Origin: Lacrimispora sphenoides | GTDB lineage: Bacteria; Bacillota; Clostridia; Lachnospirales; Lachnospiraceae | Length of the DNA: 64,000 nt | Direction of reading: 5' to 3' | NCBI RefSeq assembly: GCF_900105215.1 | Contig: NZ_FOIP01000002.1 | Coordinates: 496,001-560,000 of the forward strand | Part shown: positions 15,252-61,122 of the stretch, piece after piece | How positions within the stretch are numbered: the stretch's first letter is position 1 | How the letters are laid out: the number at the start of each line of letters is the position of its first letter | Translations under genes and position numbers: made by a program | The notes under the pieces: model-generated | Databases searched by the model: none | What the model was told of the DNA's origin: nothing | What the model saw: the letters and a program-made list of their open reading frames with translations, nothing else

Positions 15252-15283
15252 AAAAATAAACAGGTGTATTATCACTATTTAAC

Positions 15284-29236: not shown

Positions 29237-29380
29237 AATTATTCCCCCTATCTATCATTTATGTCAGTATATATCATAAAAGTGCGTTCTTGCAAGTAGT
29301 TTGGAGGGTAGTTATAATGAAATCACAAAACGTTAACGGAATTGTACATATTTAACTTAATCGATCTGAAGGGAGAAAAG

Positions 29381-40091: not shown

Positions 40092-40194
40092 ATTGTACCT
40101 TCTAAAGTGTAGCATACTCCTTTTTTAATAATATAATGGAATATCGGTTGGTACAAATATTATTTTGTCTGTCTATATATTAGGAGGTAGCTTT

Positions 40195-43012: not shown

Positions 43013-43858
43013 ATGGATAAATTCACAACTTATGAAACAGCCTGGTGTCCGGGGTGCGGAAATTTCTCCATATTAAACAGCCTGAAAACGGCGTTGGAGG
43101 AGCTGGGCATAGAGCCAAATAAAGTGTTGATGGTGGCAGGAATCGGTCAGGCAGCGAAAACGCCTCAGTATTTAAGCGCCAACAGCTTCTGCGGGCTTCA
43201 CGGAAGGGCACTTCCGGCTGCAGTTGCCGCCAAGATAGCTAATGAAGAGCTCACTGTCATAGTAAATTCCGGAGACGGGGACTCTTACGGCGAAGGAGGC
43301 AACCACTTTATTCACAACATAAGAAGGAATGTCAATATCGCACATTTTGTTCATGACAATCAGATATACGGCCTTACCAAGGGGCAGGCATCACCCACCA
43401 GCGGTGAAGGACTCATTACGGGAGTTCAGACCGATGGCAACAGAAATACGCCCTTAAATCCAGTGCTCCTGGCCATTGCTTCGGGAGCGGGATTTGTTGC
43501 GAGAGGCTTCAGCGGTGATTCAAAGCAGCTGGTGAGGATCATGAAGGAGGCTATCCTTTATCCAGGGTATGCGTTTGTGGATATCCTGCAGCCTTGCATC
43601 AGCTTCAACAAAATCAATACCTTTGCCTATTATAAAAACATGGCGGCGCCTCTTGGAGACGATTATGACCCGACGGATCGGCTGGAAGCCATTAAAATGT
43701 CGATGGAAGTCAGTGAAAAAATTCCCACCGGCATCCTCTATCGGGAAGAAAAAATGGAGTTCCATAGAAAAAACAGGCTTTTAAAAGACGGACTGCCACT
43801 GATAGAACAAAAAACAGAGGAAAGCGTGCTCAAGGACCTGATTCACAGCTTTATATAA
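43013..43858 (+). CDS. korB: 2-oxoacid:ferredoxin oxidoreductase, beta subunit
   Basis: The 281-residue protein binds thiamine diphosphate through GDGDSYGEGGNHFIHNIRRN and ends the site at NQIYGLTKGQASPTS. The CPGCGNF motif near residue 15 and later Cys residues bind the Fe-S cluster. Its ATG immediately follows the korA stop with AAAGGAGG inside korA, so translation is coupled. Confidence 0.92.
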   Translation: MDKFTTYETAWCPGCGNFSILNSLKTALEELGIEPNKVLMVAGIGQAAKTPQYLSANSFCGLHGRALPAAVAAKIANEELTVIVNSGDGDSYGEGGNHFIHNIRRNVNIAHFVHDNQIYGLTKGQASPTSGEGLITGVQTDGNRNTPLNPVLLAIASGAGFVARGFSGDSKQLVRIMKEAILYPGYAFVDILQPCISFNKINTFAYYKNMAAPLGDDYDPTDRLEAIKMSMEVSEKIPTGILYREEKMEFHRKNRLLKDGLPLIEQKTEESVLKDLIHSFI

Positions 43859-45519: not shown

Positions 45520-46473
45520 TCACCGCTGAAGAATGTGAACAGCAAAGCCTCCGACTTCCTCTTCAAAATAGATTACAATCATTTTATCATGATTGAATTT
45601 TGCAGAAGCTTCATTGAACTTATAACCTGCTGTTTCAAAATAATTTTTTGCACGGACAATGGAGTTGGTGGCGATAGCGATATGACCTTTCGTACCGAAG
45701 TAAGGAGGTTTCATACATTCAATGGCAGTTCCGGCAAATATGGAACCGGCTCCTGATCTTTTTTGAAATCCGAACATTGCCTCAAATATTCCCGCTGTTT
45801 TTTCTGCTTCCTCATCGGTACTGAGGTTTATTCCAATATGGGTGAATTCGAAACCCAGCATAGTCTGGATGGCCTTCGCTGTCAGCTCGTGTATTTTTTC
45901 AAATTCCCCTGCTTGAATCAATTCCTGTTCCACCATAAAGTTGCAGGCCAGAATATTATCGAAAGCCGGATAGGAATTGCTGTTTTTCTCATTAATGCCG
46001 TCAGCCGGAATGAAGTTTATGTGATTATAGGATGAATACGTGGTCTGGTTCATATGGAGGCCCCTATCCTGTCCGGCAGAGGAAACTTTTACAGCGTCAA
46101 GCCCAAATGAAATTGCCGTTTCAACATCGTCCGGAGTGGAAACACCCGGTATTACTGGTATGGCCCTGTCGATACAATATTTTACAACAGATGATGAGAA
46201 CTCCGGACTAACGATAAATTTTGCTCCTGCATTAACTGCGAGGCTGGCCTGTGCGGCTGTCAGAATGTCGCCGGCTCCGATCAGCATTTGGGGAAACCGT
46301 TCTGTCATTATGCGAATGGATTCTTCGGCTGCGTTGGTGGAGAGGGGAATTTCTACACAGTGAATCCCCCCGCCGCAGAGAGCCTCTGCAAGAGGAACCG
46401 CGTTTTTTACATCATCAAGTACTGCAACCGGCATAATGCCGATTTTATGAATCCTATTCAGAATTTCATTCAT
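45520..46473 (-). CDS. KDPG/KHG-aldolase-like domain fused to a VOC domain
   Basis: Residues 1-205 follow the KDPG aldolase barrel: catalytic Glu in HCVEIPLST, GAGDILTAAQA, GVSTPDDVE and the Schiff-base Lys in DAVKVSSAG. Several substrate-site residues differ from E. coli Eda by my alignment: Arg49 to Ser, Phe135 to Ser, Thr161 to Ala (IPADGI for CPTGGI), Ser184 to Asn. Residues 207-317 form a VOC/glyoxalase-like domain (FTHIGINLSTDEEAEKTAGI, GHIAIATN, EEEVGGFAVHIL). The fusion and the altered pocket suggest a new aldol substrate. It is divergent from the transporter/dehydratase operon and probably serves it. AAGGAG lies upstream of the ATG. Confidence 0.8.
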   Translation of the reverse strand: MNEILNRIHKIGIMPVAVLDDVKNAVPLAEALCGGGIHCVEIPLSTNAAEESIRIMTERFPQMLIGAGDILTAAQASLAVNAGAKFIVSPEFSSSVVKYCIDRAIPVIPGVSTPDDVETAISFGLDAVKVSSAGQDRGLHMNQTTYSSYNHINFIPADGINEKNSNSYPAFDNILACNFMVEQELIQAGEFEKIHELTAKAIQTMLGFEFTHIGINLSTDEEAEKTAGIFEAMFGFQKRSGAGSIFAGTAIECMKPPYFGTKGHIAIATNSIVRAKNYFETAGYKFNEASAKFNHDKMIVIYFEEEVGGFAVHILQR

Positions 46474-46531
46474 AGTTGAATACTCCTTAATTACGATAAT
46501 TTATAGTGTTTTATTAATCCTGATTATCTAA

Positions 46532-46559
46532 ATTATACTCACATCTTTATCGTTGTCAA
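46532..46559 (-). promoter_or_regulatory. Promoter of the aldolase-VOC gene
   Basis: On the minus strand TTGACA, 16 bp, TATAAT. The spacer starts ACGATAAAG, related to the ACGATAACA of the cre-like site in the opposite operon leader. Confidence 0.75.
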
Positions 46560-46639
46560 CAAAAAGGCATAAAAAACGCTGTATATGACAACCTTTTCAT
46601 ATACTAAATAAATATTTTAAAAAAGTTTTTTTGTATATA

Positions 46640-46668
46640 TTGACATAAATATAAAAAAGATGTATGAT
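46640..46668 (+). promoter_or_regulatory. Promoter of the Liv-type transporter/catabolic operon
   Basis: TTGACA, 17 bp, TATGAT; transcription would start near 46675, giving a leader of about 180 nt. Confidence 0.8.
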
Positions 46669-46675
46669 GTTTTTG

Positions 46676-46731
46676 AATTTAAAGAGTGATATTTGAGCGA
46701 AATAGCGAAAAATACTCTTTAAATTTTTTAA
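46676..46731 (+). terminator. Leader hairpin with T run
   Basis: AATTTAAAGAGT and ACTCTTTAAATT are perfect 12-bp arms around a 26-nt loop, followed by TTTTT. It forms at the very start of the transcript and could attenuate the operon. AT-rich pairs make it modest in strength. Confidence 0.55.
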
Positions 46732-46739
46732 AAATCAGT

Positions 46740-46755
46740 ATGAAAACGATAACAT
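46740..46755 (+). promoter_or_regulatory. Catabolite-responsive element (cre)-like site
   Basis: ATGAAAACGATAACAT fits the cre consensus WTGNNARCGNWWWCAW at every position. It lies about 65 bp inside the transcript, a roadblock position for CcpA. The operon's own LacI-type regulator could use the same site. Confidence 0.65.
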
Positions 46756-46857
46756 ATTGATGGTTAAAAGGGAAACTGTCAAAGTATCACGAAAAAACGG
46801 AGGAAAGTATCTGACAAGGGGTGCTTATTCTTTCAAAAGAGAAAAGGAGAAGTGTAT

Positions 46858-48075
46858 ATGAAAAAAGCAATAGCAATTATTTGTGCGGGTCTGATGACAT
46901 TCAATCTGGCGGCATGCGGAAGTTCCCAGACGCCTTCAACCACCGCTGCAAATGCAGCATCATCAGGAACAGAAACCAAAGCGGGGGGAACGGCAACGGA
47001 TGGAGAAATCTTAATCGGATGTCTCCAGGACATTACGGGCGCTACTTCCAGCCTTGGCCAGATGGTGCAGGCAGGAGCGCAGTGGGCCGTGGATGAAATC
47101 AATGAGAATGGCGGAGTAAAAGGGAAAAAGCTTGTTATGAACACCTATGATACCAAGGCGGATGTAACAGAAGCTATTAACGCATATACAAAAGCGGTTA
47201 CTTCTGACAAGGTTTCCCTTATCGTAGGACCGCCAGTTGCAAATATCGCTCTGGCTATTAAGGAAACCTCGGAGCAGTATGAAGTTCCGGTTATGGGCCT
47301 TGCCATGGATCCCAGCGCACAGCTTAAGGCGGATGGCACTCCATATAAGAACATGTTCTGTTTTCAGCCCAATGCGATCCAGCAGGGAGCCATTATGGCA
47401 AAGTACGCTATGAAGAACGGCTTTAAGACCTTCGGCGTTATTTATAATGAAAGTAATGCCTACTCGCTTTCTTTGAAAGATCCTTTCATTTCCACAATTA
47501 CTGAAAACGGCGGTACGGTTGATGGGAAACAGCAGGTTGCTTATAATGCAAACGATACAGACTTTAAAACCTTACTGTCCCCTATCGTGAATGCAAATGT
47601 TGATGCCATCTATGCACCAAACTACACCAAGGATCTTGTAAACATTGTTACGGCAGCACGTGCGCTGGGATATGAAGGCGCAATCATCTGCGGCCTGGAT
47701 GCATGTCCGCCTTTCAACACTATGCTTGGCGGTAGCAGTGATGGCGTATACTGCATTAACAATGTGGATGACACGGAGCCGGAGCTTCAGAAAATGATTG
47801 CAGCGGTTAAAGAAAAAACAGGGGTAGAAGCTACCAACAAATTTTTCCTTGGATATGACATCGTTAAAATTGCAGTTAAGTGTCTGGAAGAAACAGGAAC
47901 AGATGACCCTGCTGCTCTTCGTACTGCGATTGAAAATGTAAAGGATTTTAAAGGCCTTACCGGAAATATCTCCATTGATCCAAATACTCATATGACTACC
48001 GGTCTTGATATGGTTATGTTTACCTATGAAGGAACAACACCAAAAATGTTGGAAAGATTCAGCTCAGATAACTAA
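46858..48075 (+). CDS. ABC transporter substrate-binding lipoprotein (LivK-like)
   Basis: From ATG 46858 (AAAGGAGA) the 405-residue protein has a lipoprotein signal ending in the lipobox LAAC, then a low-complexity linker and a type I periplasmic-binding fold (EILIGCLQDITGATSSLGQM, GAQWAVDEINENGGVKG, VSLIVGPPVANIALAI). It is the receptor of the Liv-type importer that follows. Liv systems also take up aromatic acids, urea and other small organic acids, so the ligand need not be an amino acid. Confidence 0.9.
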   Translation: MKKAIAIICAGLMTFNLAACGSSQTPSTTAANAASSGTETKAGGTATDGEILIGCLQDITGATSSLGQMVQAGAQWAVDEINENGGVKGKKLVMNTYDTKADVTEAINAYTKAVTSDKVSLIVGPPVANIALAIKETSEQYEVPVMGLAMDPSAQLKADGTPYKNMFCFQPNAIQQGAIMAKYAMKNGFKTFGVIYNESNAYSLSLKDPFISTITENGGTVDGKQQVAYNANDTDFKTLLSPIVNANVDAIYAPNYTKDLVNIVTAARALGYEGAIICGLDACPPFNTMLGGSSDGVYCINNVDDTEPELQKMIAAVKEKTGVEATNKFFLGYDIVKIAVKCLEETGTDDPAALRTAIENVKDFKGLTGNISIDPNTHMTTGLDMVMFTYEGTTPKMLERFSSDN

Positions 48076-48102
48076 AGCTTTTAAAATGGATGGAGGCATA
48101 TC

Positions 48103-48975
48103 ATGTCACTGCAGATTATAATCAACGGCCTTGCGACGGGATCTGTCTACGCGCTGATTGCGACAGGCTTTTCATTGATATTTAATGTTTTAAAGTTTTC
48201 AAATTTTTCTCATGGTGCTACCATGACGCTGTGTGCGTTTGTTGGATACTTTTTGGTAGCTTCCAAAGGACTGGGGTTGATTCCGACAATTCTGGTTGCG
48301 ATAGTAACGGGCGGCTGCATTGCACTGATTGGAGAATTTGTGGCATTTCGCCGTATAATACAGCGTAACAGCTCTTCCGTATACTTTTTCGTTTCCTCTA
48401 TTACATTAGGAACGCTGTATGAAGGACTTGTTACCTTGAAAGTTGGGGCAAATTTTTACAGCTATCCTCAGTTCTTTAAAAAGGCGGCAATTAAGTTTGG
48501 GTCGGTTGTTGTTTCTACATCAGATCTCCTGATGTTCTGCACCAGCGCTGTTGCACTCCTTGTACTGGCCTATATTATTCAGAAAACCAGAATCGGCAGG
48601 GCACTCCGAAGCGTCAGTTTTGACAGGGATACTGCGAACCTGATGGGTATTGATGCTACACGGATTATTCAGTTTGCGTTTGTGGTTTCAGGTGCTCTTG
48701 CCGGACTTGCAGGTGTATTTCTGGGCATTAACTACACATTGTATCCGACTCTGGGCGGCCTGGTAGTAAAAGGATTTATTGCTTCGGTAATCGGAGGTCT
48801 GGGAAGTCTGCCGGGCGCGATCATCGGAGCCGTGCTTCTCGGGCTGCTTGAGACACTGTTAATCAGTACTGTGGGTTCGGGATACACCCCGGTATTTATT
48901 TTCCTTATTATGCTTGTATTTTTGTTACTCCGCCCAAGCGGAATTGCCGGCAGCAATATTCAGGAAAAGGCATAG
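48103..48975 (+). CDS. livH: Liv-type ABC permease LivH
   Basis: The 290-residue protein has about eight TM helices, the ATGSVYALIATGFSLIFNVL start and the LRSVSFDRDTANLMGID coupling segment. AATGGATGGAGG lies upstream of the ATG. It pairs with LivM to make the pore. Confidence 0.92.
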   Translation: MSLQIIINGLATGSVYALIATGFSLIFNVLKFSNFSHGATMTLCAFVGYFLVASKGLGLIPTILVAIVTGGCIALIGEFVAFRRIIQRNSSSVYFFVSSITLGTLYEGLVTLKVGANFYSYPQFFKKAAIKFGSVVVSTSDLLMFCTSAVALLVLAYIIQKTRIGRALRSVSFDRDTANLMGIDATRIIQFAFVVSGALAGLAGVFLGINYTLYPTLGGLVVKGFIASVIGGLGSLPGAIIGAVLLGLLETLLISTVGSGYTPVFIFLIMLVFLLLRPSGIAGSNIQEKA

Positions 48976-48987
48976 GGGGTACTCACA

Positions 48988-49851
48988 ATGATATTATACA
49001 TGAATATTTTCACGCAGATATGTATTACGCTTGTAGCAGTTGCGGGCGTGTATGTTCTGACAGGACTTACGGGAATGTTCAGCCTTGGGCAGGCGGCATT
49101 CATGGCAGTTGGAGCTTATGTATCCGGTATTTTTGTCGTAAAACTGGGTGTCCCGTTTCCCCTTGCCTGTATCGCGGCTGTTATAATCGCGGTTGGTATT
49201 GGCTTTGTGGTGGGTATTCCAACCGTGAGGTTAAGGCGGGATTACATATCCCTGGTTACACTTGGATTTGGAGAGGCGATTACCGCTCTGTTAAACAGAA
49301 CGACAAAGCTTACAGGCGGCGCTTCCGGTTTCATCGGTATTCCGAAAAAAACCACAACGCTGATGGCATTCACGTTTGCAGTCATTGCAATCCTGCTGGT
49401 AAACTGGTTTAAAAACAGCAAATACGGACGCCAGTGCATTGCGATCCGGGGAGATGAGCTTGCGGCCAAGGCCATGGGAATCAATGTCCCAAAAATCAAA
49501 ATCACATCGTTCCTATTGAGCGTTGCCCTTACCTCCTTCAGTGGCTGCCTGTATGCTTTCTATATTACATACGTGGATCCCAGCATTTTCGGCTGGAAGA
49601 AGAGCGCCGACTGGGTAATCATGGTTTTCTTCGGAGGCGTGAACAGCCTGACAGGATCAATCCTGGGGGCCACGATCTTAAGCGGTCTCCCGGAAGTGTT
49701 AAGAGGGCTTGCAAATTACAGAAGCATTATTTATGCAATCCTGGTATTGTTAATTATCAACTTTAAACCTTCGGGACTTTTAGGTGAGTATGAGCTTGCA
49801 GATTTGTTAAGAAGAAAAGGCCGGGTAAAGCTGCAGAAGGAGGAAGACTGA
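48988..49851 (+). CDS. livM: Liv-type ABC permease LivM
   Basis: The 287-residue protein shows LTGLTGMFSLGQAAFMAVGA at the start and the coupling loop AIRGDELAAKAMGIN. It starts 12 bp after livH, and its stop overlaps the livG start (TGATG). Confidence 0.92.
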   Translation: MILYMNIFTQICITLVAVAGVYVLTGLTGMFSLGQAAFMAVGAYVSGIFVVKLGVPFPLACIAAVIIAVGIGFVVGIPTVRLRRDYISLVTLGFGEAITALLNRTTKLTGGASGFIGIPKKTTTLMAFTFAVIAILLVNWFKNSKYGRQCIAIRGDELAAKAMGINVPKIKITSFLLSVALTSFSGCLYAFYITYVDPSIFGWKKSADWVIMVFFGGVNSLTGSILGATILSGLPEVLRGLANYRSIIYAILVLLIINFKPSGLLGEYELADLLRRKGRVKLQKEED

Positions 49852-50618
49852 TGAGCTTGCTGGAGGTTAAGAATATTTATAAAAGCTTTGGCGGTGTAAA
49901 GGCTATTCAGGATTTTTCTATCCGTGCAGATGCAGGAGAGATCCATGGAATTATAGGACCAAACGGAGCCGGAAAAACAACTATTTTCAATGTTATATCC
50001 AATGTATACACGGCGGATCAGGGAACTGTGATGCTGGATGGGAAGGATGTAACCAGAAAAGAACAATATCTCGTTACGAGAGAAGGAATGGGACGCACCT
50101 TTCAGAATATCCGCTTATTTAAGGGACTTACCGTATTGCAGAATGTTATGTGCGCATTTGATCCCCAGTCGAAGTATTCCATAATCGGAGGCCTTTTTCC
50201 AACACCGAAACGCAAAAGCGAGGAAAAGAGAGGAATTGAACTTTGCGAACATTACCTGGAAATGGTGGGGATGGCTGACTATAAGAATGAACGGCCGGAA
50301 AACCTGGCCTATGGCATGCAGCGCCGTATTGAGATCGCAAGGGCGCTGACGTGTAATCCAAAGGTACTGCTCTTAGATGAGCCGGCTGCCGGACTGAATC
50401 CTACAGAGGTCCAGGAATTGACGGAGTTGATTTCAAGACTTTCCAAAGATATTGGATTCGCAATTCTTTTGATAGAACACAGGCTGGAGCTGGTTATGAC
50501 CATTTCACACATCATTCATGTCCAGAACTTCGGAAAGACGATTGCAGTGGGTACCCCTGCAGAAATACAGAGAAATCCTGAAGTAATTGAGGCGTATCTT
50601 GGAAAGGAGGAGGGATAA
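49851..50618 (+). CDS. livG: Liv-type ABC ATPase LivG
   Basis: The 255-residue ATPase has Walker A GPNGAGKT, the Q-loop GRTFQNIRLF, signature LAYGMQRRIEIARAL and Walker B VLLLDEPAAGLNP. The LAYG form replaces LSGG, as usual in LivG. AGGAGG is inside livM. Confidence 0.93.
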   Translation: MSLLEVKNIYKSFGGVKAIQDFSIRADAGEIHGIIGPNGAGKTTIFNVISNVYTADQGTVMLDGKDVTRKEQYLVTREGMGRTFQNIRLFKGLTVLQNVMCAFDPQSKYSIIGGLFPTPKRKSEEKRGIELCEHYLEMVGMADYKNERPENLAYGMQRRIEIARALTCNPKVLLLDEPAAGLNPTEVQELTELISRLSKDIGFAILLIEHRLELVMTISHIIHVQNFGKTIAVGTPAEIQRNPEVIEAYLGKEEG

Positions 50619-50621
50619 CAC

Positions 50622-51326
50622 ATGGCAATGCTGAAAGTAATGGATTTAAGCGTCACCTATGGTCATGTCAGGGCACTGAAAAAGGTCCATGTGGAAGCGG
50701 ATGAAGGGCAGATTGTCAGTATCATCGGTTCCAATGGAGCAGGAAAGACCTCCCTCCTGCGGACCATCTCCGGTCTGGTGAAACCGGTCGAAGGAACCAT
50801 CGAATTCCTGGGGGAGGCAATACCTTCCAAGTCTAACAAAATCGTTGCGAAAGGAATTGTACACGTGCCGGAGGGACGTAAAACCTTCTCAGGCCTTACC
50901 ATTCGTGATAACCTGCTGGTCGGCGGGTATTTACATCATAGAAAACAGCTGGAAAAAGATATCGAAGAGCAGTTTAAGCGTTTCCCTATTCTGAAAGAAA
51001 GAGAGCACCAGTTTGCCGGAACTCTCTCGGGCGGCGAGCAGCAGATGCTGGCTATCAGCAGAGGACTTATGGAGCATCCCAGGATTTTGCTGCTTGATGA
51101 ACCCAGCCTTGGACTTGCGCCAATTATTGTAAACCAGGTATATGATTTAATTAAGGAGATCCGGGATTCCGGAATTACCGTGCTGCTTGTTGAGCAGAAT
51201 GCGAGAAAAGCGCTTTCGATCTGTGATAAAGCATATGTTCTTGAAAACGGTATGGTAAACATCTGCGGAACAGGTGAAGAACTGATGAAGTCTGATGTTG
51301 TAAGGAAAGCTTATCTGGGAGGTTGA
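50622..51326 (+). CDS. livF: Liv-type ABC ATPase LivF
   Basis: The 234-residue ATPase has Walker A GSNGAGKT, signature [16 protein letters not shown] and Walker [14 protein letters not shown]. It starts 3 bp after livG with AAAGGAGGAGG upstream and ends about 50 bp before the dehydratase gene. Confidence 0.93.
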
Positions 51327-51375
51327 TACAGCGTCATTAAGTATCAATTTAGGGATAATGACAGGAGGAGAAAAG

Positions 51376-53034
51376 ATGATACGTCAGTGGAATGAAGAGT
51401 CTATGGATCATCGCAATACACTGCTTTATGCGATGGGAATATCGCCTGAGGATGCGGCCAGACCTATAATCGGCCTGGTAAACTCATGGAATGAAATGAA
51501 TCCGGGACATTTCCCCTTTAAAGATGTCATCGCAGAGATGAAGGAGGAAATCTATAAAGCCGGTGGACTTGCACTGGAACTTCCTATCACCGGTGTCTGT
51601 GACGGAATTTGCTCCAATACACCGGGGGACCGTTACACGCTTCCGGCCAGAGATCTGGTATCGAGTGAAGTGGAGACGGTTGCAGAATTAAACATGCTGG
51701 AAGGCATGATTATCATGGCAACCTGTGACAAAGTTGTTCCGGGTATGATCATGGGCGCTTTGAGGGTGGATATTCCAACCGTTATGTTTACAGGCGGATA
51801 CATGGCTGCAGGTCATTATAAGGGGAAAATGCTGACTCTGACCCATACAAAGCAGGCTTATGCAGCCTACATTGCGGGTGATATGAGCGAAGAGGATTAC
51901 AAAGGAATCGTGAGAAATGCCTGCCCGACTCCGGGAGCCTGTCCCTTTATGGGAACGGCGAATACCATGTGCGCCATGGCCGAAGTTCTTGGCCTTTCTC
52001 CTCACGGTAATGCAAGTGTCCGCAGCCAGACCCCCCGGTGGCATGAGATGGCAAGGGAAGCGGCTGAAAAGATTGTGGAGGCAGTAAAGGAAGAAAGACG
52101 GCCAAGTGATTTTATAGAACAAAAGAGCTTTGAGAACGTCGTACGCTATATGATGGCAACGGGAGGTTCTACCAACAGCCTGCTTCACATCCCGGCACTT
52201 GCACGTCAGGTAAAATGCGATATTGTCCCTGAAACCTTTGATAGAATCAGCCGTGAAGTGCCCGTTATCAGCACCATTTATCCCAACCATCCAACTTATA
52301 CAATGGAAGAATTTGATGCGGCCGGAGGGCTTGGGGCTGTTGTGAAGGAACTTGCCAAAGCGGGGAAAATCGATACGGCAGCGGGCGGTATGTTCGGCAC
52401 CATCGGCAATAAGGCGGAACTTGCTGAAAATAAGGATATGGATGTGATTCATTCTGTGGAAAATCCCATCCATGAACAGGGTGGACTTGCCGTTCTTCAC
52501 GGCAATATCGGAACGGACAGTGCGATTGTCAAATTCAGTGCGGTAGATCCGGCGGCATGGAAATTTTCTGGACGGGCCAAGTGCTACGATTCTCAGGACG
52601 ATGCCTGGAATGCGATTTTAAGGGATGAAATTGTGGCCGGCGATGTTGTAATCATCCGGTATGAAGGACCGAAGGGCAGCCCGGGAATGCCCCATATGGA
52701 GACATTTATGGCAGCTGTTCTCGGAAAAGGACTTGGCAGCCGGCTTGCCCTTGTATCGGACGGCAGATTTTCGGGAGCAACCGGAGGTCTCGCAATCGGT
52801 CATGTGAGTCCGGAGGCTTATGAAGGCGGAAACCTGGCTTTGATCAAAGACGGAGATATGATTTATATCGATGTTGAGGCGAGAATGCTGACGGTAGATG
52901 TGACGGAAGCGGAATTTGCTGACAGAAGAAAATGTTTCGAACCCGTTCATAAACCGGCTAAGGGGTGGTTAAATCTTTACCGCAAAAATTGTACCTCAGC
53001 ACACCGTGGAGCAACCGTATTTTGGGAAGACTGA
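51376..53034 (+). CDS. IlvD/Edd-family dehydratase (likely sugar-acid type)
   Basis: From ATG 51376 (ACAGGAGGAG) it has 552 residues. Family blocks are [16 protein letters not shown], the cluster/metal ligands in [10 protein letters not shown] and [14 protein letters not shown], and [21 protein letters not shown] at the C-terminus. The enzymes dehydrate 2,3-dihydroxy acids using an Fe-S cluster. No other branched-chain amino-acid gene is near, while a LacI regulator, an epimerase, dehydrogenases and a KDPG-type aldolase are, so aldonate dehydration is the better guess. An ilvD function cannot be excluded. Confidence 0.85.
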
Positions 53035-53101
53035 ATGCAATTAAACGACTATGCTGAATTTTCGTGTATATTCTGACAATGTGTGATAAAATTAGGGAAA
53101 A

Positions 53102-53121
53102 GAATCCATATTATGGAATTC
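53102..53121. promoter_or_regulatory. Palindromic site before the lacI-type gene
   Basis: GAATCCATATTATGGAATTC is a near-palindrome just upstream of the regulator's ribosome site, a plausible operator for autoregulation. No binding evidence exists. Confidence 0.4.
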
Positions 53122-53140
53122 ACATATTGAGGTGATTGGA

Positions 53141-54154
53141 ATGACAAATATTAAAGTGGTTGCAGAATTGGCAGGTGTTTCAGCGACAACCGTATCGAGA
53201 GTTTTAAGTGGAAAAAGTTATGTAAGTGATGACACAAGGATGCGTGTCATGGACGCCATCCAGAAAACAGGCTACAGCCCCAACGTCATGGCAAAAGGTC
53301 TGAAAATGGGCAGGACCAATACCATAGTCCTTATGCTTCCGGATATCCAGAACCTTATTTTTCCCATGATTACGCGGGGGGTCGAAGATGCGGCAAGACA
53401 AAAAAATTACACAGTAATTCTATGCAATACCGACGAGAACAGCGGTGTTGAAAAAGACTATATTTCTACAATGAAATCACGTCTGGTGGATGGGTTTATT
53501 GTAGGCTCCATGCTTCCAAACTCTATCCATATAAGAAACCTCCGCACAGAAGGATTCCCCCTTGTGCTTATAAACCGCTTTTATGCCAAGGACGAGGGAA
53601 AAATAGATATTGTTGCCATTGATAACTTTAAAGCGGCCTATAATGCAGTCCGTTACCTGATCGGATCCGGACATAAAAAAATTGCTTTGGCTCTGGGGCG
53701 GGAGAACCTCTATTTGTATAATGAGCGTCATCGGGGTTACCGGGCGGCACTTGAAGATCATAACATCCCTTATAATGAAAACCTGGTTATGAGGGAGGCT
53801 ACAGGAAGCAGCAGCTTCTACAGCATGACACAGGCTTTGATGAACTCGGAAGACAGGCCGGATGCGATTTTTGCGACCAGCGACCCGAAGGCATTTGTTA
53901 TTCTTCATGCCCTTCATGAGATGGGGATCCGTATTCCGGAAGACGTCTCTGTACTCAGCTTTGACAATGTAACCCTTTCAGGGATGGTGGAGCCGCCGCT
54001 TTCCACTGTGGCACAGCCATTTTATGATATAGGTGTAAGAGCGACCAATAATCTGATTCATCAAATTCAATATAAAGATGAGAAGGGAGTGCTCCCCCAG
54101 CCGTTAAAAGAGCTGTTGGAGACAGATTTAATTATACGGGCTTCAACAAGATAG
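53141..54154 (+). CDS. LacI-family transcriptional regulator
   Basis: From ATG 53141 (TTGAGGTG) it has 337 residues. The HTH and hinge read NIKVVAELAGVSATTVSRVL, then NVMAKGLKMGRTNTIVLMLP leads into a periplasmic-binding-like effector domain (VDGFIVGSMLP, SGHKKIALALG, ISVLSFDNV-type VSVLSFDNVTLSG). It presumably controls the surrounding catabolic genes. A GTG at 53132 is less likely as the start. Confidence 0.9.
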   Translation: MTNIKVVAELAGVSATTVSRVLSGKSYVSDDTRMRVMDAIQKTGYSPNVMAKGLKMGRTNTIVLMLPDIQNLIFPMITRGVEDAARQKNYTVILCNTDENSGVEKDYISTMKSRLVDGFIVGSMLPNSIHIRNLRTEGFPLVLINRFYAKDEGKIDIVAIDNFKAAYNAVRYLIGSGHKKIALALGRENLYLYNERHRGYRAALEDHNIPYNENLVMREATGSSSFYSMTQALMNSEDRPDAIFATSDPKAFVILHALHEMGIRIPEDVSVLSFDNVTLSGMVEPPLSTVAQPFYDIGVRATNNLIHQIQYKDEKGVLPQPLKELLETDLIIRASTR

Positions 54155-54163
54155 GAGATATAT

Positions 54164-55003
54164 ATGAGCAACCACTGGGGAATTAATCTTTGGAATTGGG
54201 AGAATGAACTGGGACTTAAATGTGTAGGATTGTCTGAAAAAGCCTTTAAGATGGGATTTACGGCAGTGGAACTTCCCATGACTGTTCCTGAGATTCCGAA
54301 GAAACTTGTGGAGGAAATCCGTTCCCTGGATATGGAAGTGAGCCTTTGCGCCGCACTTGGAGTTGGGCGTGATCTTTCCAATTTTGATGATACGATCCGA
54401 AAGAACACAATAAAATATATGACGGAATGTTTAAAATCGGCGGAAGCAGTTTCCGCAAAAGTATTTGCCGGCCCTCTTTATACAGGGGGAGGGAAGAAAC
54501 ACCGGCTTTCTGAGGATGATGATAAAAGAGAGTGGGAGCTTGCAGTAACGGGTATCCGTAAAGTTTCTGCTATAGCAAAAGAATGCGGTGTGCGGCTTGC
54601 TCTTGAACCTTTAAACCGGTATCGGACCAGCGTTGTCAATACAGCAGCTCAGGCGTTAAAGCTTGTTTCCGATATTGGAGAGGAAAACGTAGGGGTACAT
54701 TTTGATACATATCAGGCCGGAATAGAGGAAGACAGCATCACGGATGCGTTTGAAGCCGTGCTGAAGGAAGAAAAAATGTATCATTTTCATGCCTGCTCAA
54801 ATAACAGAGGAGTTCCGGGCCAGGGATTCTTTCCGTGGAAGGATTTATGGGTGTTGATGCAAAAATACGATTATAAAGGGCATATCACAATGGAAACATT
54901 TGCGCCCGGCGGCTTTGACGCTGGTTGGGTTCAGCCGCAAAAGAGTGCGGATGAGATTGCCGAATCTGGAATCCTCTATATGAAGCAGCATGACTGGCAT
55001 TAA
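54164..55003 (+). CDS. Sugar phosphate isomerase/epimerase-like TIM barrel
   Basis: The 279-residue protein matches the tagatose/allulose 3-epimerase type of AP-endonuclease-2 fold. Metal ligands fall at ALEPLNRY (Glu), HFDTYQAGIEE (Asp), YHFHACSNNRG (His) and HITMETFAP (Glu). These enzymes epimerise or isomerise free ketoses or keto-acids. AGGAGA lies upstream. It is 9 bp after lacI, in the same operon. Confidence 0.85.
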   Translation: MSNHWGINLWNWENELGLKCVGLSEKAFKMGFTAVELPMTVPEIPKKLVEEIRSLDMEVSLCAALGVGRDLSNFDDTIRKNTIKYMTECLKSAEAVSAKVFAGPLYTGGGKKHRLSEDDDKREWELAVTGIRKVSAIAKECGVRLALEPLNRYRTSVVNTAAQALKLVSDIGEENVGVHFDTYQAGIEEDSITDAFEAVLKEEKMYHFHACSNNRGVPGQGFFPWKDLWVLMQKYDYKGHITMETFAPGGFDAGWVQPQKSADEIAESGILYMKQHDWH

Positions 55004-55024
55004 TAATAAGGAGATGACTGAACA

Positions 55025-56395
55025 ATGGCATCACATGAAAAGTTTAATTTTAAGACATTGAATGAGGTTGTAGAAAAAGTAAATTCTCTTGGTGTGAATA
55101 TAAAATTCAGCGAAGATTTATCTCCGCTTCGTGCCGAGGTAAAGGTAGGAAAACGGATTGCACCCAATGCAATTGCAATTCTTCCAATGGAAGGTTGTGA
55201 TTCAAATCCCGATGGTTCTCCTTCTGAGCTTGTTGAAAGAAGGTATAAGAGGTTTGCGGAAGGTGGAGCGGGATTACTTTGGTGGGAGGCCTGTGCGGTT
55301 GTCGTGGAAGGACGGGCCAATCCGCTCCAGATGATGCTTACTAAGGAGAATATGCCGCAGTTTAAGGCAGTTGTTGAGCGGTGCAATCAGTCGGCAGTTG
55401 CCCGCAATGGAAAAAAACCACTGAATATTTTACAGTTAACACACTCCGGCCGCTATTCCAGACCGGAAGGCCATAAGGGAGCGCCTATTGTTCCCCAGCA
55501 TGACCCTATTCTGGATCCGAGAGTCGGGCTTGCGGCAGATGCACCTGTCGCGACCGATGAATATCTGGACAATTTAACAGCTCATTATGTGGAAAGTGCG
55601 GTTTTGGCAAAGGAAGCAGGTTTTGACGGTGTGGATATAAAGAATTGCCACCGATATCTTTTGAGTGAGTTGATTGCCAGCCACACAAGAGAGGGAAAAT
55701 ACGGCGGAAGCTTTGAAAACAGGAGCCGGTTTCTTCGCCAGACAATCCGTGCCGTCCGGGAAGCTGTGGGCGATGACTTTATTATAGCCTGCCGTTTCAA
55801 TGTATTTGACGCTCATCCTTATCCCTATGGCTTCGGCTGTGATCAGAAAGACATGTGGAAGTTTGATCCCACAGAGCCTATGGCTCTTGTACAGATGCTG
55901 GTGGAAGAGGGCGTTGATCTTTTAAGCAATTCTGCGGGAAATCCCTATTATATTTATCCTCAGGTAACAAGGCCTTTCGACTTATCCAGCATGGGAGTCC
56001 CCACTCCGGATGAACATCCCCTTGAAAGCATGGACCGTCTGTTTGAGTTCACACGGCAGATTCAGAAAGCAGCAGGTGATGTGCCTGTTGTGGGAAATGG
56101 TTATACATGGCTGAGGCAGTTCCTTTCTTATGCAGGTGCGGCGAACCTGGCCGACGGAAGCTGTAAATTTGTGGGTCTGGGGCGCTCAGGCTTTGCATAT
56201 CCGGATGCCCCCCGCGATATTCTGCTGAAAGGAGAAATGGATCCGAAGCAGTGCTGCGTCACCTGTTCAAAATGCACTCAGATTATGAGAGACCATGGAA
56301 GAACCGGCTGCGTCATCAAAGACAGTGAAATCTACGCGGGCTTTTATAAGGAGTACAGAGAGGAAGCTTCCATGCGTGAGAAAAGTTTCCAATGA
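55025..56395 (+). CDS. Old-Yellow-Enzyme-type FMN/Fe-S reductase
   Basis: The 456-residue protein has an OYE barrel: PNAIAILPMEGCDSNPDGSP, LQLTHSGRYSRPEGHKGAP and a catalytic strand DGVDIKNCHRYLLSELIASH, where KxCH replaces the common HxxH. CCVTCSKCTQIMRDHGRTGC near the C-terminus supplies the [4Fe-4S] ligands. The FAD/NAD part of 2-enoate reductases is absent, so an external electron donor is needed. It probably reduces an enone or enoate formed by dehydration. GGAGATGA precedes the ATG. Confidence 0.85.
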   Translation: MASHEKFNFKTLNEVVEKVNSLGVNIKFSEDLSPLRAEVKVGKRIAPNAIAILPMEGCDSNPDGSPSELVERRYKRFAEGGAGLLWWEACAVVVEGRANPLQMMLTKENMPQFKAVVERCNQSAVARNGKKPLNILQLTHSGRYSRPEGHKGAPIVPQHDPILDPRVGLAADAPVATDEYLDNLTAHYVESAVLAKEAGFDGVDIKNCHRYLLSELIASHTREGKYGGSFENRSRFLRQTIRAVREAVGDDFIIACRFNVFDAHPYPYGFGCDQKDMWKFDPTEPMALVQMLVEEGVDLLSNSAGNPYYIYPQVTRPFDLSSMGVPTPDEHPLESMDRLFEFTRQIQKAAGDVPVVGNGYTWLRQFLSYAGAANLADGSCKFVGLGRSGFAYPDAPRDILLKGEMDPKQCCVTCSKCTQIMRDHGRTGCVIKDSEIYAGFYKEYREEASMREKSFQ

Positions 56396-56412
56396 AGGAG
56401 GACTTAAAAAAA

Positions 56413-57441
56413 GTGAGTGTAAAAACCAGCAGAATTGGGAAAGTAACCGAGCCCATGAAAGCAATCATCGGGAAAAGGGATATTCAGCCTCCGAAAAAGG
56501 GACAGGTTCTGATAAAGATTAAATCAAGTGCCATTTGCGGCAGTGATATCCATATTTTTAAAGGGAAACACCCTTCTGCCCCCCTTCCTATGACCATTGG
56601 GCATGAATTTTCGGGAGATGTGGTTGAGATTGGAGAAGACGTTACCAATGTATCTATAGGAGACCGGGTAACGGTGGAACCTTGTATTGTCTGCGGAACA
56701 TGCGATGCCTGTTGTCATGGAGATTACGGATATTGTGAGAATATATCGTTTACATACAGAAATGGCGACGGAGCCATGGCTGACTATATTCTGGTCAATG
56801 AGCCGTATGTGTATAAGCTTCCTGAATACCTGACTTATGATACAGGTGCCCTGATTGAACCCTTGAGCGTGGCAACCCATGCGGTACGCCGCGCAGATAT
56901 CCGCCTTGGAGAGACAGTTCTTGTTATCGGAGCAGGTGCGATAGGAATGCTGATTGCGTCCATATGCAAAAAGAGCGGAGCTGCCGAAGTTATTATTGCG
57001 GATTTTTCTGATGAAAGGCTTGCAGCAGCGAAAAAGCTGGGCGCTACTATAACGGTAAATTCGGGAAAAACAGATCTGGAGGACGAGATACGTCGAATTA
57101 CAAATGGAAAGGGCGTTGATAAGAGTTTCGAATGTGTTGGCCTTGAAGCATCTTTTTTACAAGCGATGATGACGTTAAAGAAAAATGGCCTGGCCACTGT
57201 TATTGGAATCTTTGAGAATCCGCAGATCAATATTCCTGCAAGTAGATTTGTCACCCATGAAATTAAAATCCAGGGTGCTCAGGGATACTGCTGGGATTTC
57301 CCGATTGCACTTAAAGTTGCCAGAGAATTAGACCTTGAACTTCTGATCACCCATCATTTTCCTCTTGATGATATTCAGAAAGCTCTTGAAACTTGCCTTG
57401 ATAGGAAATCGGGCAGTATTAAGGTCCTTTTACATCCTTAG
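56413..57441 (+). CDS. Zinc-dependent medium-chain alcohol/polyol dehydrogenase
   Basis: The GTG start at 56413 follows AAGGAGG at 56395; an ATG at 56392 would overlap the previous gene but lacks a ribosome site. The 342-residue protein has catalytic zinc ligands (SSAICGSD, IGHEFSG), the structural zinc motif CIVCGTCDACCHGDYGYC and the NAD fold VLVIGAGAIGMLIASIC. It resembles threonine/sorbitol dehydrogenases and oxidises a secondary alcohol. Confidence 0.9.
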   Translation: MSVKTSRIGKVTEPMKAIIGKRDIQPPKKGQVLIKIKSSAICGSDIHIFKGKHPSAPLPMTIGHEFSGDVVEIGEDVTNVSIGDRVTVEPCIVCGTCDACCHGDYGYCENISFTYRNGDGAMADYILVNEPYVYKLPEYLTYDTGALIEPLSVATHAVRRADIRLGETVLVIGAGAIGMLIASICKKSGAAEVIIADFSDERLAAAKKLGATITVNSGKTDLEDEIRRITNGKGVDKSFECVGLEASFLQAMMTLKKNGLATVIGIFENPQINIPASRFVTHEIKIQGAQGYCWDFPIALKVARELDLELLITHHFPLDDIQKALETCLDRKSGSIKVLLHP

Positions 57442-57524
57442 AGACACGATTTAAGAGAAACACCCTGCGGGTATACCTTTATGCCCAAAAAGCATGGGCG
57501 AACAGATGAAAGGTGAAAGAGAAA

Positions 57525-58292
57525 GTGAAAAAAACAGCGATTGTAACAGGAGGAAGCCGCGGCATTGGATTTGCCATTGCTTATCAGTTGGGCCTTGACG
57601 GCTACAATGTGGTCATCATGGCTACTTCTGCCGAAGATAAAAATCAGGAAAATATGAGCATGCTTAAAGCTGCCGGGATTGAATATACATATGTCCAAGG
57701 AAATATTGGTGATTCCAAAGACAGAGAGAATCTTGTCAGAAAAACGGTGGAGAGATATGGTGCTGTTAACGTACTTATCAATAATGCAGGTGTTGCCCCA
57801 AATGTAAGGGCGGATTTGCTGGAGATGTCAGAAGAAAGCTTTGACCGTGTTGTAGGCATCAATACAAAAGGAAATATGTTTCTGACACAGGCAGTTGCAA
57901 ACCAGATGCTGAAACAGCCCGTAGAAGGGAAAAAGCGGGGAACCATCATCAATATTTCATCCTGCTCTGCCGTTGTATCCAGTACAAACCGCGGAGAGTA
58001 CTGTGTTTCTAAAGCAGGCATATCTATGCTGACAACCCTTTACGCGGACCGTCTTGCAGGAGAAAGCATTTTTGTCCATGAGATCCGCCCGGGAGTGATT
58101 GCTACGGATATGACCAGTACGGTGCAGGGAAAGTATGACACACTTATTGAGCGGGGCGCATTCCCGATTACCAGGTGGGGGATGCCGGAGGACGTGGCCA
58201 ATGCGGTCAGCGTTTTCTGCAGTGATAAATTCCTCTATACAACCGGAAATTATATTGATGTAGATGGAGGCTTTCATATCCAGAGGTTATAA
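57525..58292 (+). CDS. Short-chain dehydrogenase/reductase
   Basis: The 255-residue protein has the NAD(P) motif TGGSRGIG, the NNAG motif, the Ser in ISSCSAV and the YxxxK pair in EYCVSKAG. GTG 57525 or 57513 could start it, since AAAGGTG overlaps the latter. It is the second dehydrogenase in the cluster, separated from the first by about 80 bp, and may act on the epimerised intermediate. Confidence 0.88.
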   Translation: MKKTAIVTGGSRGIGFAIAYQLGLDGYNVVIMATSAEDKNQENMSMLKAAGIEYTYVQGNIGDSKDRENLVRKTVERYGAVNVLINNAGVAPNVRADLLEMSEESFDRVVGINTKGNMFLTQAVANQMLKQPVEGKKRGTIINISSCSAVVSSTNRGEYCVSKAGISMLTTLYADRLAGESIFVHEIRPGVIATDMTSTVQGKYDTLIERGAFPITRWGMPEDVANAVSVFCSDKFLYTTGNYIDVDGGFHIQRL

Positions 58293-58313
58293 TAAGCCTG
58301 ATAAAACCATGTG

Positions 58314-58355
58314 AATGGGGCTGCTGCAGAATGTGAAATCGGCAGCAGCCCCATT
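58314..58355 (+). terminator. Strong intercistronic hairpin
   Basis: AATGGGGCTGCTGC and GCAGCAGCCCCATT are perfect 14-bp arms around a 14-nt loop. Only AATTCTG follows, so it is a weak terminator at best; it may protect or end part of the transcript before the flavoprotein gene. Confidence 0.55.
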
Positions 58356-58380
58356 AATTCTGTAAAGAAAGGCGGACTAG

Positions 58381-60339
58381 ATGAAACTACAGATGTTTAA
58401 TAAAGTACAGTTGTATCAGATGAACACGGTTGTCGTGGGAACCGGAGCAGCCGGATTTAATGCGGCAGATCAGCTATGGGCTTTAGGCCAGAAGGATATT
58501 GCGATTGTGACCGATCATGTGGGAGCGGGAACCTCCCGCAACACCGGTTCTGATAAACAGACCTATTATAAGCTGACGCTTTGCGGAAACGATCCTGACA
58601 GCGTGGGAGATATGGCAGAGACGCTGTTCAGCGGCCAGTGTATGGACGGCGACATTGCCTTGTGTGAAGCGTCATTATCTGCCAGATGTTTTCTAAAGCT
58701 TGTTAACCTCGGCGTGAACTTCCCCCAGAACAGGTGGGGGGAATTCGTTGGCTACAAGACGGACCACGATCCCAGGTGCCGTGCCACAAGTGTAGGCCCA
58801 TACACTTCAAAACAGATGACAGAGTGCCTGGAACAGGCAGTCAGGGAAAAGAATATTAAGATTTTTGACAGGATGCAGGTAATTAAGATTCTTTCCGACG
58901 AAGAAAGGGTGTATGGACTTCTTTGTCTGGATTTGAGCTGCCCGGATGATGAAGAAAGACGATTTGTACTTTTTTCCTGTAAAAATATTGTGTTTGCCAC
59001 CGGCGGGCCGGCCGGGATGTATGCGGACAGCGTGTATCCGGCCGGACATTATGGATCCAGCGGTCTTGCATTTGAGGCGGGGGCCAAAGGGAAAAATCTG
59101 ACAGAATGGCAGTATGGGATAGCGTCCATTCATCCGCGGTGGAACGTATCGGGAACCTATATGCAAGCGCTTCCCCGTTTCTTTTCTACGGATGAAAGTG
59201 GAAATGATGAGCGTGAGTTTTTATCGGATTTCTTTGAAAACCGGGATGCTATGCTCAGCAGTATTTTTTTAAAAGGATATCAATGGCCTTTTGACGTAAG
59301 AAAGCTTTCAGGAGGAAGTTCGATCATTGATATTCTGGTATATATTGAAAGAAGCAGAGGCAGACGGATATTTCTTGATTTTCGCGAGAATCCCGGTAAG
59401 GAACCGGTGAATTTTGAAAATCTGGATCAGGAGGCCTTTGAATATTTAAACAGGGCAGGTGCATGTTATGGGACACCGATCGAGAGATTAAGCCATATGA
59501 ATATGCCGGCGGTGGAATTTTATCTTGGAAGAGGAGTAGATTTAAGGACAGAGCCTCTTGAGATTGCAGTGTGTGCTCAGCACAATAATGGAGGTTTAGC
59601 AGCTGATGCATGGTGGCATACGGATGTGGAGGGACTTTTTGCAGCCGGCGAGGTTTGCGGTAGCCATGGTGTCTATCGCCCGGGCGGAAGCGCTTTGAAT
59701 TCCGGCCAGGTCGGCTCATCAAGAGCTGCGCAGTACATAGCAGCCAGGAGACATGGAGAGCCTGATAATACGGGCGAAAGTTTTAAAGATATTGCCGGAA
59801 AAGCGGTATATGATGCGGAAAAGATGGTATCCCAGGTTACGGGGAAAAAAGAAGGTCGAATCGCAGTGAGAGAGCTTTGGAACCGAGCAGCCGTCCGCAT
59901 GAGTCGGTTCGGAGCGGCCATACGGAATCCCGAAAAGATTGAACTGGCCATAAAGGAGGTTCAAGAGGAACTTTCGCATTTGGGTGATTTCGCCTGGGTG
60001 GAAGACGGGAAGGAACTCTGGCGCGCCTTTCGGCTGAGAGATATGCTTATCAGCCAGTTTGTGTATCTCTCTGCTATGAAAGATTATGTAGATCATCAAG
60101 GAAGGAGCAGAGGCAGCGCTCTTTACACGGATCTTAGCGGACAAAAGCCAGATCCAAGGCTGCCGGAAGAATTTACATTCTGCCTTGATGACGGCGGCAG
60201 TGCAGATTTGATACAGGAAGCTTCATATAGAAATGGGAAGGTTCAATTTGAATGGAGAAAGGTAAGAACGATTCCTGAAGATGATAACTTCTTTGAGAAT
60301 GTGTGGAGGCAGTTCAGAGAAAATCAGAATATTTATTAG
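58381..60339 (+). CDS. Fumarate-reductase/L-aspartate-oxidase-like FAD flavoprotein
   Basis: The 652-residue protein has the FAD fold TVVVGTGAAGFNAADQL, SRNTGSDKQTYYKL, the mid motif NIVFATGGPAGMYAD, and C-terminal GLFAAGEVCGSHGVYRPGG. It belongs to the succinate dehydrogenase/fumarate reductase flavoprotein group but has no iron-sulphur or membrane partner nearby and no signal peptide. It may reduce or oxidise a C-C bond of the pathway intermediate. AAAGAAAGGCGG lies upstream. Confidence 0.82.
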   Translation: MKLQMFNKVQLYQMNTVVVGTGAAGFNAADQLWALGQKDIAIVTDHVGAGTSRNTGSDKQTYYKLTLCGNDPDSVGDMAETLFSGQCMDGDIALCEASLSARCFLKLVNLGVNFPQNRWGEFVGYKTDHDPRCRATSVGPYTSKQMTECLEQAVREKNIKIFDRMQVIKILSDEERVYGLLCLDLSCPDDEERRFVLFSCKNIVFATGGPAGMYADSVYPAGHYGSSGLAFEAGAKGKNLTEWQYGIASIHPRWNVSGTYMQALPRFFSTDESGNDEREFLSDFFENRDAMLSSIFLKGYQWPFDVRKLSGGSSIIDILVYIERSRGRRIFLDFRENPGKEPVNFENLDQEAFEYLNRAGACYGTPIERLSHMNMPAVEFYLGRGVDLRTEPLEIAVCAQHNNGGLAADAWWHTDVEGLFAAGEVCGSHGVYRPGGSALNSGQVGSSRAAQYIAARRHGEPDNTGESFKDIAGKAVYDAEKMVSQVTGKKEGRIAVRELWNRAAVRMSRFGAAIRNPEKIELAIKEVQEELSHLGDFAWVEDGKELWRAFRLRDMLISQFVYLSAMKDYVDHQGRSRGSALYTDLSGQKPDPRLPEEFTFCLDDGGSADLIQEASYRNGKVQFEWRKVRTIPEDDNFFENVWRQFRENQNIY

Positions 60340-60642: not shown

Positions 60643-61122
60643 ATGAATCATGACAGTGAATGTGAATACTGCTGTGATGACTGTTGTTGTGAGAAACAAG
60701 AAAAATCAAACGCAACTGCATTAAGATGCGGAAGTCCAGGATTTGTTGCATTTCCTAATTTAACCGGAGTGGATATAACGCGTACGATTGCCGAATTACA
60801 GGTTAATCTTTCGGGATTTGAGAATCCTTGCATCCTACTGTCATTTACTGCGAATATTGTTATAGGTGTAGCAGGCAACTATAGATTTCAAATCTTTAAA
60901 GAGTGTACAGGTAAGTCCCCTATTCCAGTTAGCGGAATATATGAATATTCCAGAACAGTTGCTACAACGGTAACTGATACCTTTAATTTTAATGTATGTG
61001 ATTGTGATTCCTGTATGAATGACTGCTGCACCTATCTGGTTGTAGTTACGTTTAATGTCAGTCCTCTTATCGGTAGTGCAACACTCAGCGCCATTATTAC
61101 CGATAATGTTTGCCACAGCTAG
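60643..61122 (+). CDS. DUF4489 family protein, copy 2
   Basis: The 159-residue protein has a Cys-rich start (CEYCCDDCCCEKQ), ALRCGSPGFVAFP, PCILLSFTANIV and VCDCDSCMNDCCTYLVV, in the same order as copy 1 at 40.2 kb. Overall identity looks modest. ATGGAGG precedes the ATG. Probably a spore- or surface-associated protein of unknown role. Confidence 0.75.
   Translation: MNHDSECEYCCDDCCCEKQEKSNATALRCGSPGFVAFPNLTGVDITRTIAELQVNLSGFENPCILLSFTANIVIGVAGNYRFQIFKECTGKSPIPVSGIYEYSRTVATTVTDTFNFNVCDCDSCMNDCCTYLVVVTFNVSPLIGSATLSAIITDNVCHS

Follow-up and report, generated by a model that had tools for sequence, protein, structure and literature searches.

Among the described systems that come close to the gene cluster studied here are Entner-Doudoroff-type sugar-acid catabolism and the branched-chain amino-acid genes for Liv transport and IlvD. 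The cluster occupies positions 45520-60339 of a 64,000-nucleotide stretch of the genome of Lacrimispora sphenoides, a species of the Lachnospiraceae (NCBI RefSeq assembly GCF_900105215.1, contig NZ_FOIP01000002.1, positions 496,001 to 560,000 of the forward strand), the whole of which we call the window. With Entner-Doudoroff-type catabolism it shares the dehydratase and aldolase families, and a kinase and/or aldolase recurs at a minority of related loci (see below); it differs in that a conserved trio of an old-yellow-enzyme-family protein (OYE), a short-chain dehydrogenase (SDR) and an FAD protein resembling fumarate reductase and NadB (FRD) here takes the place of the dehydratase, and in that the window cluster lacks a kinase. 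Its importer and dehydratase belong to the same protein families as branched-chain Liv transporters and IlvD, but they miss the curated scores, and the biosynthetic ilvD lies separately in the genome. The locus is real and conserved, a catabolic cluster of sugar-acid type that is apparently undescribed and has a widespread oxidoreductase trio as its core; the open-access literature, with preprints and most subscription papers not covered, yielded no description of the cluster and no pathway assigned to the trio. Our reading, to which we give a probability of about 0.45, is that the cluster serves the catabolism of an anionic sugar (a sugar acid or a small acidic glycoside), with the trio performing unusual chemistry en route to a 2-keto-3-deoxy sugar acid.

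The three core genes, all on the forward strand, encode an OYE with four conserved cysteines (55025-56395; PF00724), an SDR of the PRK12745 family (57513-58292; NF009386, 318.6 bits at a cut-off of 250) and the FRD-like FAD protein (58381-60339; PF00890). Relatives of the OYE were gathered by an alignment scan of a species-genome collection (described as covering 84,980 species), from which the best 80 of at least 563 confirmed relatives were taken, a choice that favours close relatives, and from a class-wide sample of 391 genomes, 60 of which carried the OYE family (E<=1e-80). From the latter, 58 loci were analysed (G000 and G016 left out), and this sample shares four contigs with the best-80 set. 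Pooling gave 142 non-redundant OYE loci after near-duplicates (L024-L029, L058) and same-contig pairs (L118/L061, L119/L062, L128/L070, L131/L096) had been removed. Several of the carriers are labelled as from animal guts (rumen, caecum, rectum). Near the OYE, that is, within eight genes of it, the SDR was found at 103 and the FRD at 105 of the pooled loci, as against 8 for an IlvD relative; the conserved core is therefore the OYE-SDR-FRD trio and not the dehydratase around which the first-pass annotation had seen the cluster built, and the window holds a richer version. The epimerase (9 loci), the Zn-dependent medium-chain dehydrogenase (MDR; 16) and the LacI regulator (24) of the window are likewise accessory.

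Both partners accompany the OYE at 94 of the 142 pooled loci and at 39 of the 58 class-sample loci, and in 62 of the 142 the three genes are adjacent in exactly this order on one strand. The range of the trio takes in Clostridia, Spirochaetes, Planctomycetes, Lentisphaerae and others. A control with the same thresholds, made on 20 loci holding other members of the OYE family from the genus, gave an SDR at seven, an FRD at none and both at none. Moreover, the distance matrices of OYE, SDR and FRD correlate (0.60, 0.49 and 0.69; p 0.001; 86 loci; host relatedness not removed), which is support for, although not proof of, co-inheritance of the trio. One further arrangement (L061, L062, L070, L120, L127, L123) has genes for an OYE, an FRD-like protein, LacI and MDR, and no SDR was seen in it; its FRD is divergent (27-30 % in L061, L062 and L070), L123 being an exception (727 bits).

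The larger assembly is conserved as well. The complete set of 12 forward-strand genes keeps an identical order in five of the 96 loci fetched, of which three lie outside the genus (Faecalispora jeddahensis, L037; a Clostridia bacterium, L038; Candidatus Galloscillospira, L039), so that the window cluster is not a product of chance, and the search for the same gene set in other genomes that had been proposed as a check came out positively. Part of the order is retained in L040, L042, L045 (Anaerolineaceae) and L114. Within the genus, 2 of the 24 other genomes searched hold the full set (G013 and G014, with OYE identities of 98 % and 96 %), one (G005) contributes a short contig only, with OYE, SDR and FRD, and in six (G006, G010, G016, G021, G022, G024) SDR and FRD are neighbours of an OYE that is about 60 % identical.

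In the window itself, all named cluster genes were confirmed with the very open reading frame (ORF) limits given before, and the gene set lies together as claimed, its families matching except for a weak VOC label on the divergent aldolase gene. Ten of the 13 cluster proteins were scanned with Pfam and NCBIfam, and LivM, LivG and LivF with Pfam. Reading along the forward strand, a Liv-type substrate-binding protein (SBP; Peripla_BP_6; 46852-48075; PF13458, 200.8 bits) is followed by permeases of the LivH type (48103-48975; PF02653, 134 bits) and LivM type (48988-49851; PF02653, 143.6 bits), ATPases of the LivG type (49851-50618; PF00005, 116.8 bits; PF12399, 50.6 bits) and LivF type (50622-51326; PF00005, 110.7 bits), an IlvD/Edd-family dehydratase (51358-53034; PF00920/PF24877), a LacI-family regulator (53132-54154; PF00356, PF13377), a TIM-barrel sugar epimerase/isomerase resembling D-psicose 3-epimerase (54164-55003; PF01261; PsicseEpim 159 bits, cut-off 300), the OYE, the MDR (56392-57441; PF08240, PF00107), the SDR and the FRD. 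Neighbouring genes are spaced from a 4-base overlap to a 97-base gap, and because of these small distances 46852-60339 probably forms one or two transcription units. The 2-oxoacid:ferredoxin oxidoreductase genes upstream (41345-43858) were considered as a further part of the cluster and set aside, as the syntenic loci gave no match to them. Two homologous Cys-rich small proteins (40165-40737 and 60643-61122; 43 % identity over 149 columns) flank the region.

The accessory enzymes recall the inositol route of Thermotoga, which employs a 5-keto-gluconate epimerase and an inosose dehydrogenase. If the substrate were an inositol or a keto-aldonate, the epimerase, MDR and dehydratase would act as in that route and the flavoenzymes would have a side role in redox balance. 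The epimerase does reach 111 bits with IolO and the MDR 218 bits with IolM, but both fall far under the curated cut-offs (300 and 450), and the two genes are accessory, as counted above; we regard this substrate class as quite improbable.

That the dehydratase and the transporter might be ordinary branched-chain amino-acid genes had been named as a possible refutation, and we reject it on curated scores and on the genome's other ilvD. The dehydratase stays below both IlvD models (583 vs 618 for TIGR00110, 590 vs 644 for PRK00911), and a separate biosynthetic ilvD, located between ilvB and leuB, reaches 782 and 840; since the genome has this ilvD of its own, the cluster does not belong to branched-chain amino-acid metabolism. 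The importer is similarly remote from its curated relatives, with 83 bits for the SBP against PRK15404 (cut-off 477) and 123 bits for LivH against the curated Liv model (cut-off 379). The solved structures nearest to the SBP (3td9, 123 bits) and to the SDR (4da9, 200 bits) suggested no ligand.

The OYE matches PF00724 with 96 bits, and its AlphaFold2 (AF2) model (pLDDT 92.6) resembles ene-reductases, 2,4-dienoyl-CoA reductase and 2-naphthoyl-CoA reductase in a structure search. At the usual position of HxxH or HxxN, which we take to be the classical substrate-binding pair of OYEs, all 92 aligned rows (at least 200 bits) have K206xxH209. The cysteines C411, C414, C417 and C429 are each present in 99 % of these rows, and the protein is probably an Fe-S enzyme. 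Long OYE forms (median 884 aa) occur at 22 loci; the one in L079 is fused to Fer4_20 and Pyr_redox_2 domains (Pfam), for which reason NAD(P)H is its likely electron source, and by sequence such a fusion is present in other long forms too. The window encodes a second OYE-family protein of the long form (29342-31330, 662 aa), with no FRD or SDR relative above 60 bits nearby.

The FRD-like protein is 98 % and 97 % identical to its counterparts in Clostridium sp. ASBs410 and Lacrimispora, respectively, and its AF2 model (pLDDT 88.3) has the SdhA/FrdA/NadB fold (Foldseek best E 2.4e-27, TM about 0.7). H244 and H351, presumably the substrate histidines of NadB, align with G246 and Q400, and the substrate arginine of NadB, R386, aligns with R433; all three positions are invariant in 64 rows (at least 150 bits, divergent forms left out). 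As both substrate histidines are replaced, the FRD-like protein is, judged by these residues, no fumarate reductase in the strict sense. The claim of two flavoenzymes active on C=C bonds was accordingly not supported, given KxxH for HxxH in the one and Gly and Gln for the L-aspartate oxidase histidines in the other. Structure searches with both models recovered the folds and indicated no substrate.

What the trio acts upon can be approached through its neighbours. A PfkB protein resembling the kinase of 2-keto-3-deoxygluconate (KDG) and/or an aldolase of the type acting on 2-keto-3-deoxy-6-phosphogluconate (KDPG) was found at 19 of the 142 OYE loci, seven of which have both. For example, L049 combines Liv importer, aldolase-VOC, kinase, LacI, OYE, SDR and an FRD interrupted by the contig end, and L079 combines a long OYE, SDR, FRD, a short kinase frame and an aldolase; the kinase of L057 scores 304 bits with the KDPG aldolase/kinase fusion model (cut-off 700). 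Transporters for organic anions stand beside the trio in several forms, namely Liv, TRAP in L030, TctC in L054 and Asp-Al_Ex in L044. The kinases and aldolases at 19 loci together with these transporters therefore favour a route that takes a sugar acid to a 2-keto-3-deoxy acid, which is the best reading that the gene content suggests. A 2-hydroxyacid dehydrogenase (33 loci) and a member of one TIM-barrel family (25 loci) are further frequent neighbours, an arabinose-isomerase-like gene is present at four loci, and a minority has heparinase-like, rhamnosidase, GH88 or GH30 genes. In L054, an OYE-SDR-FRD operon that includes a TctC-type transporter protein is directly preceded by genes for three proteins that resemble one another; two of the three match QueG/reductive dehalogenases (all under the cut-off).

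The same kinases and aldolases would fit an extended uronate route as well, in which the trio turns saturated or modified hexuronates into 4-deoxy-5-keto-uronate and then KDG, in parallel to KduI/KduD or the alginate routes. Genes resembling Heparinase II/III lie near the OYE in 11 of the 142 loci and GH88 relatives in three (L022, L059, L162), and the SDR gives 138.5 bits with the KduD model, which is, however, well short of its cut-off (338.85). Moreover, the GH88 gene of L022 is separated from the cluster by a gene on the opposite strand, and two of the heparinase-like loci (L129, L134) have an OYE without SDR or FRD. Matches to the GH88 and KduI families were found in all 25 genus genomes searched, whether or not the trio is present, so these genomes probably have the ordinary route in any case; for this reason ordinary unsaturated-uronate breakdown alone is rejected as the answer, and the extended route seems unlikely to us, though worth keeping in view. 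A link to sulfoquinovose, raised by an SftI-like isomerase in L143, was dropped because its score is far under the cut-off (64 bits vs 700) and a sulfoquinovose route would leave the KDG-type kinases without a task.

Genes of the URO-D family (Pfam) were noticed in or beside trio operons in L033, L042, L136, L144 and L153, and L144 has a B12-binding protein farther along, which suggests demethylation in some lineages. An O-methylated substrate, for example a methylated uronate that is demethylated first, would account for them; however, no more than five loci have them, proteins of this family serve various functions, and the window cluster shows no such gene, so that this possibility strikes us as very slight.

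The aldolase gene of the window diverges from the rest (45520-46473, reverse strand) and encodes a protein of 317 aa in which a KDPG/KHG-aldolase domain is joined to what is probably a VOC domain. The aldolase half of the proposed fusion is secure as to family (PF01081, 154.6 bits; eda, 172 bits at a cut-off of 156). The C-terminal part has no Pfam match even at E<=1; its counterpart in L049 has a weak match to Glyoxalase_4 (E=0.013, Pfam) and a stand-alone 121-aa VOC-like copy in L042 gives E=0.0027, under the curated cut-off, so a VOC identity is likely but weakly supported. The positions of the Schiff-base Lys and the catalytic Glu, as we assume the KDPG-aldolase catalytic residues to be, are kept in the window protein; the Lys is replaced by Ile in L021 and Asn in L022, and the Glu is lost in L022. 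The GGSW motif, presumably the phosphate site, is absent from the window aldolase and L022 and retained in L049, and the window protein has LST in place of the FRT of its relatives.

Between this gene and the SBP lie 378 bases, which hold a perfect palindrome of the LacI/cre type, ATGAAAACGATAACAT (46740-46755), the sole match to the search pattern without mismatch in the window. It is unchanged before the SBP in the genus relatives L021 and L022, and LacI-type operator sites were also seen close upstream of the OYE in L037, L039 and L042, in the last also before the SBP. The automatic count missed the site in L037 because the called OYE ORF begins too far upstream. The idea that the genes, a LacI gene among them, form a coherent unit for catabolism stood, the substrate probably being an acidic sugar; as for the word regulon, gene position and the operator-like sites suggest that the LacI protein probably controls the cluster. 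A strong hairpin lies between the SDR and the FRD (58314-58355, forward strand; inverted repeat with 17-nt arms, 94 % paired); it is GC-rich, has no T-run and is possibly an attenuator or processing site. Elsewhere in the window, an FMN riboswitch was noted at 15282-15398 on the reverse strand (121.9 bits).

Relatives of the FRD in Escherichia coli and Rhizobium (35-36 % identical, with 97 % of the window protein aligned) have quite different company. The E. coli protein, 53 % identical to the FRD of L079, is encoded in an island (L178) between ytfB and rplI together with a TetR regulator, a PRK12745 SDR (421 bits), a TIM barrel, a crotonase, a CoA-transferase and a major facilitator superfamily (MFS) protein that falls into the D-galactonate-transporter family (314 bits against a cut-off of 395); at least 80 % of its 10.5-kb stretch is present in 1037 of 5426 genomes (about 19 %). 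The island adjoins a hipA-like gene annotated as frameshifted in that strain. In Rhizobium, the FAD protein neighbours a CoA-transferase, a crotonase, an aldehyde dehydrogenase and sugar-type ATP-binding cassette (ABC) genes, and L176 has in addition a KdgK-like kinase (250 bits, cut-off 400) and a Gfo/Idh protein resembling levoglucosan dehydrogenase (306 bits, cut-off 650). No OYE homologue was found next to the Rhizobium FAD protein. A 26 % identical FAD protein of Agrobacterium sits with a CoA-transferase and MaoC. Conversely, the CoA-transferases of E. coli, Rhizobium and Agrobacterium and two crotonases, used as queries, matched none of the ORFs at the OYE loci (E<=1e-5). CoA-transferase and crotonase in place of the OYE beside FRD relatives therefore hint at an alkene intermediate, which the two enzyme sets might handle in two ways.

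Another reading takes the substrate to be a hydroaromatic acid of the quinate or shikimate kind, whose ring alkenes the OYE and the FRD-like enzyme would reduce; the pair of enone/enoate-reductase-like enzymes, the CoA-transferase and crotonase of the E. coli version and a protein of L073 that matches an aromatic-acid MFS family (138 bits, cut-off 418) would agree with this. However, the kinases and KDPG-type aldolases, the IlvD-type dehydratase, the arabinose-isomerase-like genes and the D-galactonate-family transporter of E. coli all point to open-chain sugar acids, and we give a hydroaromatic substrate little credence.

Returning to an anionic sugar as substrate, we infer from the gene content, the conserved core, the linkage to kinases and aldolases in a minority of relatives and the distinction from amino-acid genes a scheme that is tentative in its step order, alkene intermediate, substrate class and regulation. 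The Liv-type ABC importer would take up the anionic sugar, with the LacI protein probably controlling the cluster. The FAD protein and/or a dehydrogenase would most likely oxidise the sugar acid, and elimination of a beta-hydroxyl (or another leaving group) would give an enone or enoate, whose C=C bond the OYE, probably an Fe-S enzyme, would reduce with electrons from NAD(P)H. The SDR would reduce a carbonyl to yield a 2-keto-3-deoxy sugar acid for an Entner-Doudoroff-type lower pathway. In the window version, the epimerase, Zn-dehydrogenase and IlvD-type dehydratase may add a second entry or process isomers. A more general idea, which we hold with considerable doubt, is that the trio stands for a widespread anaerobic sugar-acid dehydroxylation that oxidises, eliminates to an alkene and reduces by a dedicated Fe-S OYE, with an FRD-fold flavoprotein re-purposed for sugars and with some Proteobacteria (E. 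coli with the same SDR) combining such an FAD protein with CoA-transferase and crotonase, which would deal with the alkene instead.

Several findings weigh against this scheme. At 123 of the 142 loci neither kinase nor aldolase was found at the threshold used, the window cluster itself lacks a KDG kinase, and its aldolase looks degenerate; because both genus copies have lost the Lys, the gene may be decaying in the genus. One or both partners are missing at 48 of the 142 OYE loci; at 18 of these the contig or region stops fewer than three genes past the OYE. Other trios adjoin transporters of the GPH type (L086) or the cytosine/purine type (L032), and a general LacI operator before the OYE is rejected, since the automatic count puts such a site in just 2 of 141 loci. 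The exchange of OYE for CoA-transferase and crotonase comes from two lineages plus the 26 % identical Agrobacterium protein, and no homologue of the PRK12745 SDR was found near the FAD protein in the Rhizobium clusters. Finally, because the window OYE and FRD lack the classical active-site residues, both may catalyse something other than alkene reduction.

In any case, once the substrate is named, three protein families would gain a role together, and reductive sugar-acid metabolism may turn out to be an electron sink; there would also be a lead on the E. coli island with its relatives of the flavoprotein and the SDR. In that island homologues of two trio members meet (36 % for the SDR and 35 % for the FAD protein); it differs in having CoA-transferase and crotonase and no OYE, and its annotation names no pathway. 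To the OYE/2,4-dienoyl-CoA reductase family, including 2-naphthoyl-CoA reductase, the window OYE is tied by fold, the Oxidored_FMN domain, the four cysteines and, in one relative, NAD(P)H-type domains, and it is set apart by KxxH for HxxH, by its own gene neighbourhood and by 91 bits with the best curated model (cut-off 793). The FRD-like protein, in turn, has the fold and one carboxylate-site Arg in common with the fumarate reductase/L-aspartate oxidase family, but two histidines of that family are invariant Gly and Gln here, and no gene for an Fe-S or haem partner stands beside it in the window.

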